Both the position numbers and the translations under genes were made by a program. A model generated the notes under the pieces. It was not told where the DNA came from and searched no databases. It was given only the letters and a program-made list of their open reading frames with translations. Shown here piece after piece: positions 61,153-64,000 of a stretch of DNA of 64,000 nucleotides (the first letter of the stretch is position 1; each line of letters opens with the position of its first letter). The DNA lies in contig NZ_CP074372.1 of the NCBI RefSeq assembly GCF_018362995.1, positions 4,836,001 to 4,900,000 on the forward strand. The letters run 5' to 3'. Origin of the DNA: Chryseobacterium indologenes (GTDB lineage Bacteria; Bacteroidota; Bacteroidia; Flavobacteriales; Weeksellaceae).

Positions 61153-61863
61153 ATGTACAAATCAATTTCCTTCATTTTATTGTTTTTTTTTATGTTTTCA
61201 TGTAAGCCTGAGAATGTAAAAGCAAAAGAATTTAAAATAGGAAAAGTTAGTTTTAATTATCCTTCTGATTGGAAATTAATAGAACCAAAGATGATTGATT
61301 CTTATAGTGCATATTTAACTAATAATGAAGATACTATATTTATAAATTATGGAAGATATAATCATAAAATTTACAAAAATAAATTAAGTGAGAATTTAAG
61401 GGAACAAATTGAAATAAATGGGAGAGAAGCCGTAATTGAAATACCAAATTCTAAACAAGGATTTTATAATATTTATGTTCCAAAATTAGATTCATTAGAT
61501 GGAGTTATTATATCATCATCTTCATTAAAAGATAGGAAAAAAGTTGCTACAATATTATCTGGTTTTAAAATAGACAATATTGGCAATTCAAATATTTTAG
61601 ATAAGAAGAATTTCTCAAACAAAAACAAAGAAACTGGATTAACTAATTATGAATACAATTGCTTAAGCTGTCATTCTGAAAATAATCGAGTTATTGGTAG
61701 GTCATTAGATAAAGCTTTTATAAATTCCAAGAGCAGTGAATGGCTGACAAACTATCTATACTCAGATAAAAAAAGTTATTATACTGATATTAAATGCTTT
61801 CAATTTGATAAAAAAGATTCGATATTAGTAAATCAAATGGTAAATTACCTAAAACATAAATAA
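61153..61863 (+). CDS. Lipoprotein with a C-terminal CxxCH haem-binding motif
   Basis: The 236-residue protein has a lipoprotein signal (MYKSISFILLFFFMFSC, Cys about residue 17). A strand-rich N-terminal domain follows (KIGKVSFNYPSDWKLIEP, TIFINYGRYNHK), reminiscent of lipid-anchored sensor-like modules. The C-terminal part has YNCLSCHSENN with CxxCH at 170-174, followed by EWLTNYLYSDKKSYY and NQMVNYLKHK, where a Met may be the distal haem ligand. It resembles a small mono-haem cytochrome c fused to another domain. DNA here is much more AT-rich than neighbours. The haem reading is inferred from motif only. It precedes the Crp/Fnr gene by 15 nt. Confidence 0.65.
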   Translation: MYKSISFILLFFFMFSCKPENVKAKEFKIGKVSFNYPSDWKLIEPKMIDSYSAYLTNNEDTIFINYGRYNHKIYKNKLSENLREQIEINGREAVIEIPNSKQGFYNIYVPKLDSLDGVIISSSSLKDRKKVATILSGFKIDNIGNSNILDKKNFSNKNKETGLTNYEYNCLSCHSENNRVIGRSLDKAFINSKSSEWLTNYLYSDKKSYYTDIKCFQFDKKDSILVNQMVNYLKHK

Positions 61864-61878
61864 TTTAGAATTAAAATT

Positions 61879-62517
61879 ATGCAGGACAATACCATACTTT
61901 CTTCCGAATTTTCATCACCAGATCTGGTAGAAAAGCTGTATCAATATGGTACAACGAAAAATTACCATGAAGGAGATATCATCTTAGATGAAAATGCTTC
62001 CATTCGTTCTATTCCTATTGTGATGAAAGGAATGCTGAAGGTCATCAGGACTGAAGAAGACGGACGTGAAATTTTACTATACTACATCAAAGCGGGAGAA
62101 AGCTGTATCATGTCTTTTCTTGGTGGAATGCATAACGAAAAAAGCATCGTAAAAGCCGAAATCGAAGAAGATGCGGAAATTCTTTTTTTACCGGTAGACA
62201 AAGTATCTTTATTCATCAAAGAGCACCCGGAATGGTTAGACTATATCTTCAGATTGTATCATAAAAGGTTTGAAGAACTATTGGATATCATCAATGCGAT
62301 TGCTTTCAAAAAAGTAGATCAAAGACTGCTGAATCTGCTGCAGAAAAAATCTGAACTTACCCACTCTGAAACCATCACTACAACTCATGAACAGCTTGCA
62401 AATGAGCTGGGAACTGCAAGAGTAGTAGTCTCGAGGCTCCTCAAGCAACTGGAAGAAGACGGAAAAGTAAAGCTGGGCAGAAACAAAATTACCCTCCTGA
62501 AAACCCTTAATTCATAA
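61879..62517 (+). CDS. Crp/Fnr family transcriptional regulator
   Basis: The 212-residue protein has a cyclic-nucleotide-binding-like N-terminal domain (about 20-130: EGDIILDENASIRSIPIVMKG, GREILLYYIKAGESCIMSF), a long dimerisation helix and a C-terminal Crp HTH (about 165-205: THEQLANELGTARVVVSRLLKQLEEDGKVKLGRNKITLL). It has one cysteine in GESCIMS, and no N-terminal iron-sulfur Cys set, so it is not classical FNR. Downstream genes on the same strand, with a shared upstream sequence, suggest it controls sulfur-type genes (TauE/SafE and MBL). Effector is unknown. Confidence 0.92.
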   Translation: MQDNTILSSEFSSPDLVEKLYQYGTTKNYHEGDIILDENASIRSIPIVMKGMLKVIRTEEDGREILLYYIKAGESCIMSFLGGMHNEKSIVKAEIEEDAEILFLPVDKVSLFIKEHPEWLDYIFRLYHKRFEELLDIINAIAFKKVDQRLLNLLQKKSELTHSETITTTHEQLANELGTARVVVSRLLKQLEEDGKVKLGRNKITLLKTLNS

Positions 62518-62564
62518 ACGATACCTCATTTTAATCAAGGGCACTCACATTCCCCTCCTTTGGT

Positions 62565-62645
62565 GGGGTGGCGAAAATTCAGAGAATTTTTGACGGGGTG
62601 GTCAACCTGTCATTGCGAACCAAAGGAGAACCAATCTCGGGTAAT
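62565..62645. repeat. GTCATTGCGAA palindromic repeat fragment
   Basis: CTGTCATTGCGAACCAAAGG (about 62609-62628) with CCAATCTC resembles the left arm of the element at 37156-37190 (GTCATTGCGA, CAATCTC). It seems to be a partial copy. Confidence 0.5.
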
Positions 62646-62695: not shown

Positions 62696-62719
62696 CTTAT
62701 GTAACAAAAGTAGCTGTAG
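62696..62719 (+). promoter_or_regulatory. Shared 24-bp operator-like sequence, copy 1 (TauE/SafE gene)
   Basis: An exact 24-bp match to 63567-63590, containing GTAACAAAAGTAGC, a near-palindrome (GTAAC-N4-GTtaC type). TTTG begins at 62741, 22 nt beyond the end of the repeat, and TTTG begins at the identical distance from copy 2. This fixed geometry suggests a regulator site centred about 41 bp before the transcription start. Confidence 0.7.
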
Positions 62720-62767
62720 CCTTCCTTTCACTTTCCCATTTTTGCATCAGAATATTTGAATAGTAAA

Positions 62768-63562
62768 ATGGAAATTATAGGGTATGCAGCAGCAGTTTTA
62801 ATCGGGATTTCTCTCGGTTTGATCGGAGGTGGGGGAAGTATTCTCACCGTTCCGGTCCTTGTTTATCTCTTTGGTCTCGATGCCTTTCTGGCAACGGAAT
62901 ATTCCCTTTTTATAGTGGGAATAAGCAGTCTTGTTGGATCTGTTTCGTATTTTAAAAAAGGGTTGGTCAATTTTAAGATGGCAATGATATTCGGAATTCC
63001 TTCTGTGCTTTCCATCTTTTTAACCAGAATATACCTTCTCCCTTTAATTCCGGAAGAGGTATTCAGAATACAGAACTTTACCATTACCAGAGACATTTTT
63101 TTATTATTGATTTTCGCAGGCCTGATGATTCTGGCTTCTTATAAAATGATAAAGGGCAATGCTTCAGAAAAACTTTCAGAAAGAGCTGCAGATAAGAATA
63201 ATACTTTGCTGGCTGCAGGACAGGGTTCTGTTGTGGGTGTTCTAACCGGATTGGTAGGAGCAGGAGGTGGTTTTATGATTATTCCGGCATTGGTTAACCT
63301 CTTAAAAATTCCCATGAAGATCGCGATAGGGACTTCTTTAGTCATTATCTCCTTCAATTCTTTGATAGGCTTTTTTTCTTCTGCAAATCACGTAAAAATA
63401 GAGTGGAAACTATTGATTTCTATCGCGACAATTGCTGTTGCAGGAATTATAATAGGTTCACAGCTATCAAAAAAGATAGATGGAAAAAAACTAAAACCGG
63501 CATTCGGATGGTTTATCCTGATCATGGGTATTTACATTATTACCAAAGAAATATTTCTTTAA
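62768..63562 (+). CDS. TauE/SafE family sulfite/anion exporter
   Basis: The start is taken at ATG 62768; the longer frame begins with TTG 62756. The 264-residue membrane protein has about eight TM segments in two similar halves, each opened by a glycine-rich loop: GLIGGGGSILTVPVLVYLFG near residue 20 and GLVGAGGGFMIIPALVNLLKIP near 163. This is the TauE/SafE/YfcA fold, which moves sulfite, sulfonates or other anions. It is followed by an ETHE1-like MBL gene and preceded by a Crp/Fnr regulator. It carries the shared upstream 24-bp site. Confidence 0.9.
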   Translation: MEIIGYAAAVLIGISLGLIGGGGSILTVPVLVYLFGLDAFLATEYSLFIVGISSLVGSVSYFKKGLVNFKMAMIFGIPSVLSIFLTRIYLLPLIPEEVFRIQNFTITRDIFLLLIFAGLMILASYKMIKGNASEKLSERAADKNNTLLAAGQGSVVGVLTGLVGAGGGFMIIPALVNLLKIPMKIAIGTSLVIISFNSLIGFFSSANHVKIEWKLLISIATIAVAGIIIGSQLSKKIDGKKLKPAFGWFILIMGIYIITKEIFL

Positions 63563-63566
63563 ATCT

Positions 63567-63590
63567 CTTATGTAACAAAAGTAGCTGTAG
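63567..63590 (+). promoter_or_regulatory. Shared 24-bp operator-like sequence, copy 2 (MBL gene)
   Basis: Identical to copy 1 at 62696-62719. TTTG starts at 63612, again 22 nt beyond the end. It overlaps the end of the TauE/SafE region by none; it begins 5 nt after that stop codon, so the MBL gene has its own promoter. Confidence 0.7.
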
Positions 63591-63646
63591 AGGAAAAAAG
63601 AAAGCGGGAGATTTGTATCAGATAACAACATCAAAAAATAGAGACA

Positions 63647-64000
63647 ATGAAAATAAAACAGATTTATACAGGATGCCTGGCACAGGGAGCTTATTATATT
63701 ACTTCAGCAGGTGAGGCGGCAATTATCGATCCTTTAAGAGAGACACAACCTTATATCAACAGACTGAAGGAAGATGGAGTAGAATTGAAATATATTTTTG
63801 AAACCCATTTTCATGCTGATTTTGTCAGCGGACACCTTGATTTAAGCAATAAAACCGGAGCTCCGATTGTGTATGGCCCAACTGCAAAACCAGAGTTTGA
63901 GGCTATCATTTCAGAAGATCATCAGATATTTGAAATAGGAGATATTACAATCAAGGTTCTTCATACACCAGGGCATACTCTTGAGAGCTCATGTTATTTG
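63647..64000 (+). CDS. ETHE1/persulfide-dioxygenase-like MBL-fold hydrolase, 3' part beyond window
   Basis: ATG 63647 opens a frame that runs off the right edge; 118 residues are seen. The sequence is of the ETHE1/Blh type of metallo-beta-lactamase fold: QGAYYITSAGEAAIIDPLRE near residue 13, the metal motif THFHADFVSGH near 55 and HTPGHTLES near 108. Such proteins oxidise persulfides (ETHE1) or are linked to sulfide detoxification, often together with rhodanese domains, which could lie in the missing part. The neighbouring TauE/SafE gene and the shared upstream sequence support a sulfur role. Confidence 0.85.
   Translation, partial: MKIKQIYTGCLAQGAYYITSAGEAAIIDPLRETQPYINRLKEDGVELKYIFETHFHADFVSGHLDLSNKTGAPIVYGPTAKPEFEAIISEDHQIFEIGDITIKVLHTPGHTLESSCYL

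Follow-up and report, generated by a model that had tools for sequence, protein, structure and literature searches.

The closest described gene sets are those of the Staphylococcus aureus cst operon and of the reactive-sulfur operons of Acinetobacter baumannii. In cst (tauE, cstA, cstB and sqr, under the CsoR-like repressor CstR) a TauE-family exporter stands beside a persulfide dioxygenase-sulfurtransferase, the genes are co-regulated and all four are raised in a cstR deletion, as stated in the available part of PMC5480029. The FisR and BigR systems of A. baumannii hold PDO, TauE and YeeE/YedE genes in reactive-sulfur operons, with a sigma54 activator and an ArsR-family repressor as regulators, and a persulfidated Crp-like protein is also reported from this species (PMC7315123, in the sections available). 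Reviews on bacterial sulfide and persulfide sensing, in their accessible text, name CstR, SqrR/BigR and FisR; in a word search of these texts 'bacteroid' was absent, and 'crp' and 'fnr' occurred just in the reference list or in sections on carbon monoxide. In the open-licence literature we found no publication on a Crp/Fnr protein that regulates genes for persulfide dioxygenase, TauE or rhodanese and none on such a system from Bacteroidetes, which, as the search was limited to open-licence papers, is weak evidence of absence.

The other point of comparison is the class II CRP/FNR promoter of Escherichia coli. The class II position is -41.5, and the activator touches RNA polymerase from a site that adjoins the -33 region. 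The locus described here resembles these promoters in that a palindromic Crp-type site, predicted to be centred at -41.5, lies by the promoter, and in that the residue at the Glu181 position is tied to base 3 of the half-site. It differs from them in the Bacteroidota -7 box NAnnTTTG, in Val at the Glu181 position, in the asymmetric GTAGC right half and in a regulator that lacks a CRP equivalog score.

The locus lies at the end of a stretch of 64,000 nucleotides from Chryseobacterium indologenes (NZ_CP074372.1, positions 4,836,001 to 4,900,000), which we call the window. On the forward strand it carries a gene for a Crp/Fnr-family regulator of 212 aa (61879-62517; cNMP_binding and HTH_Crp_2 domains), a gene for a TauE/SafE-family membrane protein of 264 aa, a putative sulfite/thiosulfate/sulfonate exporter (62768-63562), and the start (63647-64000) of a CstB-like MBL-rhodanese-rhodanese gene that encodes 473 aa and runs past the window (L031:6647-8068). 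Two YeeE/YedE genes lie beyond the window (L031:8078-8641 and L031:8666-9154), i.e. 9 nt separate the MBL gene from the first and 24 nt separate the first from the second. The MBL protein matches PF00753 and, in two stretches, PF00581, so that the MBL domain is followed by two rhodanese domains as in CstB-type proteins. Over its length it also matches PDB 3tp9 and 3r2u (the latter with E 9.6e-59, residues 3-454), and we take 3r2u to be the S. aureus CstB protein. The product is best explained as a putative persulfide dioxygenase/sulfurtransferase of the CstB kind. Unlike in cst, we noticed nothing similar to cstA or sqr among the frames listed nearby, and the linked regulator is of the Crp/Fnr family, with proposed class II operators, and not a member of the CsoR family, as it would be in a CstR-type regulon. 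Unlike in A. baumannii, one regulator would join the gene sets.

The regulator belongs to the Crp/Fnr superfamily by PF00027 (40.9 bits, cut-off 27.5) and PF13545 (42.7 bits, cut-off 27), and its structure model has a predicted CRP fold (best fold match 4ev0, E 2.1e-16). Against the cAMP-CRP equivalog model NF008732 it reaches 53.7 bits, the cut-off being 266. An FNR-type [4Fe-4S] cluster, the oxygen sensor of FNR, needs several cysteines, and the window's regulator has a single one, Cys76. This residue is present in 91/91, 14/14 and 16/17 distinct proteins of three identity groups, i.e. in 121 of the 122 homologues at the loci. It is also found in the two nearest paralogues of this genome and is therefore not specific. 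By eye no sulfur genes were recognised within about 1.5 kb of these two paralogues, so Cys76 was rejected as a mark unique to sulfur-linked regulators. Autoregulation through the same site was rejected as well, since none of the 113 regulator gene copies of this group (some of them single genes seen in two loci) has a site within 250 nt upstream.

Two further elements surround the regulator gene. A lipoprotein-like (cytochrome-like) reading frame with a CLSCH (c-type heme) motif, at 61153-61863, ends 15 nt before it; as a conserved partner it was rejected, since matches to it are found in just 5 of the 171 loci and the window itself accounts for two of these. An interspersed repeat of about 57 nt (62549-62605, strand not assigned) separates the regulator gene from the tauE promoter; more than 30 copies of it, partial or full, are present in the genome at 80-96% identity, and the system does not need it.

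The original prediction described 24 identical bases upstream of the TauE/SafE and MBL genes, each followed by a TTTG that starts 22 nt past the repeat with unrelated sequence in between, and this description is exact at both sites. The 24-mer, CTTATGTAACAAAAGTAGCTGTAG, occurs on the forward strand at 62696-62719 and 63567-63590. The flanking bases are C..C at the first copy and T..A at the second, i.e. unlike on both sides, so the length of the repeat is exactly 24 nt. Each copy, a proposed operator, contains the palindromic core GTAAC-AAAA-GTAGC (62701-62714 and 63572-63585), directly followed by TGTA (62715-62718 on the forward strand, and 63586-63589), a conserved asymmetric extension that reads KGTA in relatives and lies at about -34 to -31. 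After 21 intervening bases, which are unrelated in the two promoters, TTTG is found at 62741-62744 and 63612-63615 as the end of the -7 boxes CATTTTTG (62737-62744, tauE promoter) and GAGATTTG (63608-63615, MBL-rhodanese promoter), both of the type NAnnTTTG and on the forward strand. From the site geometry and the box position in Flavobacterium, transcription is predicted to start at an A in both cases, at 62749 for tauE and at 63620 for the MBL-rhodanese gene (forward strand), which would leave leaders of 19 nt and 27 nt, respectively.

In the 5.0 Mb genome there are just two copies of the exact core TGTAACAAAAGTAGC. The looser pattern TGTRACNNNNGTARC is found at eight places on both strands, among which the core is present in just these two, and with TTTG required 26 nt past the core only the same two places are left genome-wide. 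Further exact class II members in this genome were thus rejected, as the other six matches lack the spacing. With up to three mismatches the window has 25 matches against 7.25 expected, only the two sites being exact, and at three mismatches there is no genome-wide excess (207 + 162 against 226 + 242 for the reversed control); in other words, the exact sites are what stands out.

We consider it highly probable that both repeats are operators of the adjacent Crp/Fnr protein and that this protein is a class II activator of the tauE and MBL-rhodanese promoters. A dimer of the regulator would bind GTAAC-N4-GTAGC, adjoining the -33 region and overlapping part of it, and would activate, in the class II manner, promoters of the housekeeping sigma factor. 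The small sulfur regulon of the original prediction would then consist of two promoters, one driving tauE alone and the other driving the MBL-rhodanese-rhodanese gene together with, by close spacing, the two YeeE/YedE genes. The unit would oxidise persulfide and export excess reactive sulfur or move sulfur oxyanions. This reading draws on features of the compared sequences themselves, i.e. the sites, their fixed geometry, their conservation at sulfur genes and the co-variation of a helix residue with a half-site base; we infer binding, activation rather than repression, the start sites and the continuity of the operon.

The distance between core and box was studied in 91 non-redundant sites, defined as TGTRACN4GTRRC in 171 loci with spacers differing by at least 5 bases; the orthologous promoters in these counts are not mutually independent, and five of the loci (L198, L199, L200, L215 and L216) were fetched because of a pattern match. 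TTTG is found exactly 26 nt past the core in 81 sites and TTTA in 6, i.e. TTT[GA] in 87 of 91; the remaining four have neither there, and the next commonest TTTG offset accounts for 5 sites. Outside the close group (65 loci, 137 Crp-type palindromes) TTTG is at +26 in 57 cases, 11 of them preselected by pattern, and no other offset has more than 4. Among the 35 places given by the reversed pattern as a control, none has TTTG at +26 and no other offset exceeds 2. A point against our reading is that in two Mangrovimonas loci the offset of TTTG is +25. In Flavobacterium psychrophilum the sigma-A box TAnnTTTG occupies -12 to -5 (PMC9723704, part available). If the G of the box is set at -5 as in that species, the palindrome centre falls at -41.5, in agreement with the earlier placement of a class II site near this position, and +1 falls at an A, the base found there in 85% of the 91 sites.

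Of the 115 promoters of this group, 113 have C or G at -12, the first position of the box, whereas T stands there in all 21 promoters of a related rhodanese/OsmC group, which keep the same geometry with a perfect TAnnTTTG. A C or G at -12 would make the -7 box weak, which is consistent with activator dependence. These features bear on the alternative that survives best, unlikely as it is, namely that the Crp/Fnr protein is a repressor which covers the -33 region and is released by reactive sulfur like CstR and BigR. Repressor sites usually vary in position, whereas the constant centre at -41.5 together with the degenerate -12 is an activator signature. For a repressor it can be said that the site adjoins the -33 region and that most of the reactive-sulfur regulators named in the reviews, as far as their text is available, are repressors.

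The preferred reading of a class II activator leaves part of the conserved sequence aside. In the close group the KGTA element has G at its second and T at its third position in 114 of 115 sites each, with weaker conservation in the other groups, and neither this flank nor the GTAGC right half is accounted for by a symmetric dimer, a point against our explanation.

The recognition helix of the regulator reads TARVVVSR, and one Val in it presumably occupies the position of Glu181 in E. coli CRP, as aligned by eye with the CRP sequence. Substitutions of Glu181 in CRP alter the specificity at base 3 of the half-site. When sites were searched with base 3 left free and TTT[GA] required at +26, regulators with Val at this position had GTAA half-sites in 142 of 143 sites and those with Ala or Ser (the Elizabethkingia type) had GTGA in 8/8. 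Thr gave a mixed picture (1/2), and Glu went with exactly one GTGA half in 11/11. Other Val regulators (Mariniflexile, Mangrovimonas and two more genera) showed no GTGA half in their printed sites. In a tree of 79 regulators, where long branches leave the deep joins unsure, Val appears at two or more separate points, while Ala, Ser and Thr are nested in the large Val clade. Glu181 is named as a base contact of CRP in the part of PMC12531629 that was available.

The pairing has a poor fit in one genus (g11), where six of seven loci (L221, L225, L226, L227, L228 and L233) carry TGCAAC-N4-GTTGC and not TGTAAC after the regulator gene, 26 nt before TTTG. The helix there is the usual TARVVVSR, which counts against the residue-base pairing in its simple form. 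This palindrome may be an operator, the terminator hairpin of the regulator gene or both. The poor fit may mean that it is such a hairpin, or else that the pairing rule is incomplete.

In some relatives the left half-site is built around the stop codon of the regulator gene, as TG-TAA-C or TG-TGA-C, and a change of operator base 3 is therefore also a change of stop codon. Such an overlap is seen in 17 of the 113 gene copies of the window's group and in 10 of 12 in the related rhodanese/OsmC group (L063, L073, L192, L195, L217, L222 and L235, and ten of L203-L214). The regulators of the latter group, L203-L214, have 50-55% identity and the helix ITREA[TV]SR, and their genes precede a single-domain rhodanese gene (12/12 by eye) and an OsmC-like gene (8/12 by eye); the operators that overlap the stop codon are of the GTGAT/GTAAC type.

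A distinctly unlikely alternative is that the conserved block and the -7 box together form a promoter for an alternative sigma factor, with no activator site. The fixed distance, the strongly conserved asymmetric KGTA and the C or G in place of T at -12 would suit such a promoter. The left half, however, ends about 35 nt upstream of TTTG, which is farther off than a -35 element would lie, the outer halves are palindromic, and a base of the site co-varies with the Crp recognition helix. The relatives that hold the geometry with a perfect box argue in the same direction.

Conservation of the proposed operators was examined in 80 loci of TauE relatives. A site with at most two mismatches to the core precedes tauE in all 38 loci of Chryseobacterium, Epilithonimonas and Elizabethkingia, and in the same 38 loci such a site also precedes the MBL gene found in each; i.e. 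the check suggested earlier, a search for the site upstream of sulfur genes in related species, finds it at the same genes. All the earlier refuting conditions that are open to computation turned out in support of the original interpretation. Across the family, TGTRACNNNNGTARC-N26-TTTG matches 90 of 197 genomes, against 3 matches in all for the reversed control, which excludes chance. Thirty places with the spaced pattern were inspected, each in a different genome; the window's genus accounts for 27 of these genomes. Of the thirty places, 27 directly precede a gene of interest, namely tauE in 12 cases, the 473-aa type of MBL gene in 12, YeeE in 2 and a second type of MBL gene in 1, and the remaining three comprise two inside coding sequence and one without a reading frame after it. 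Eleven further pattern matches were chosen and gave 13 sites, 10 of which precede TauE, MBL, YeeE or rhodanese genes by eye; the other three lie before a peroxiredoxin, inside coding sequence and before nothing recognised. At four of these eleven loci (L256, L257, L258 and L260) it is a more distant Crp/Fnr gene that stands beside the sulfur genes. The peroxiredoxin, recognised by eye, follows a class II-type site at L261:3000 (genome G070), TGTAACTCAAGTAAC, with TTTG at +26, and is a possible extra member of the regulon in that genus.

Regulator genes of this group, with at least 64% identity, occur in 67 of the 197 genomes: 59 have both gene and spaced pattern, 8 the gene only, 31 the pattern only and 99 neither. 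Among the eight with the gene only, three (G165, G169 and G196) lack tauE beside the regulator and have a site at the same distance before YeeE with TTTA for TTTG, three (G039, G056 and G089) have the g11 palindrome, one (G027) has a weaker site at the right distance, and in one (G019) none was found. Within the window's genus (50 genomes) the exact pattern is found in 30 of the 33 genomes with the gene and in 2 of the 17 without it.

Several cases go against the preferred explanation. In G098 and G105 near-perfect sites precede MBL genes although no close regulator turned up in these genomes; G067 has one such site on a different contig from the regulator, and the search of the G019 and G010 loci yielded no site. 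In all three Sphingobacterium loci the site precedes the MBL gene and the locus has no Crp match at E 1e-6. Separately, four records (L059, L060, L061 and L062, named as Epilithonimonas hispanica, E. lactis, Chryseobacterium vrystaatense and C. gambrini) have the same 45-nt promoter sequences; one of these precedes the second MBL type, and the same 45-mer occurs in G105 (L200), which is another genus. Either recent transfer or contaminated assemblies would explain the shared promoters.

It is very unlikely that the sites serve some other Crp/Fnr paralogue or a global regulator, the adjacent gene being incidental. The genome does hold 12 other Crp-like matches, and the spaced pattern occurs without a close regulator in the 31 genomes mentioned above. 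On the other hand, the co-variation of helix and site tracks the adjacent gene, which also supports the original attribution to it, the pattern follows the presence of the gene within the genus, and in the stop-codon overlaps the operator includes the stop codon of the regulator gene itself. That chance or gene conversion produced functionless identical 24-mers is refuted by the comparative data, for although two copies within 900 bp could arise by recent conversion, both sites are kept in dozens of species with diverged spacers and the same 26-nt distance, and the reversed control is nearly empty.

If, as we prefer, the adjacent Crp/Fnr protein is a class II activator of both promoters, its signal is likely to be reactive sulfur species, by analogy with the gene contents of S. 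aureus cst and A. baumannii FisR/BigR, and Cys76 is a candidate persulfide sensor. A tentative extension, which we regard as possible but rather doubtful, is that the subfamily is a reactive-sulfur sensor of Bacteroidota: persulfide modification of the single Cys76 in the effector pocket would make it activate persulfide-oxidising and sulfur-exporting genes, strictly in the class II manner, and its DNA specificity would have evolved by swaps of a helix residue (E, V, A/S, T) together with an operator base.

On the best explanation, the unit would work as the cst system of Staphylococcus does, with a Crp/Fnr class II activator over the reactive-sulfur operon. If this is true, a large phylum uses a different type of regulator for the same chemistry. 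With the 26-nt rule, class II promoters of Crp/Fnr proteins could be found in a simple way in genomes of Bacteroidota, and the pairing of residue and base would supply a natural series in which to test how these regulators alter their specificity.
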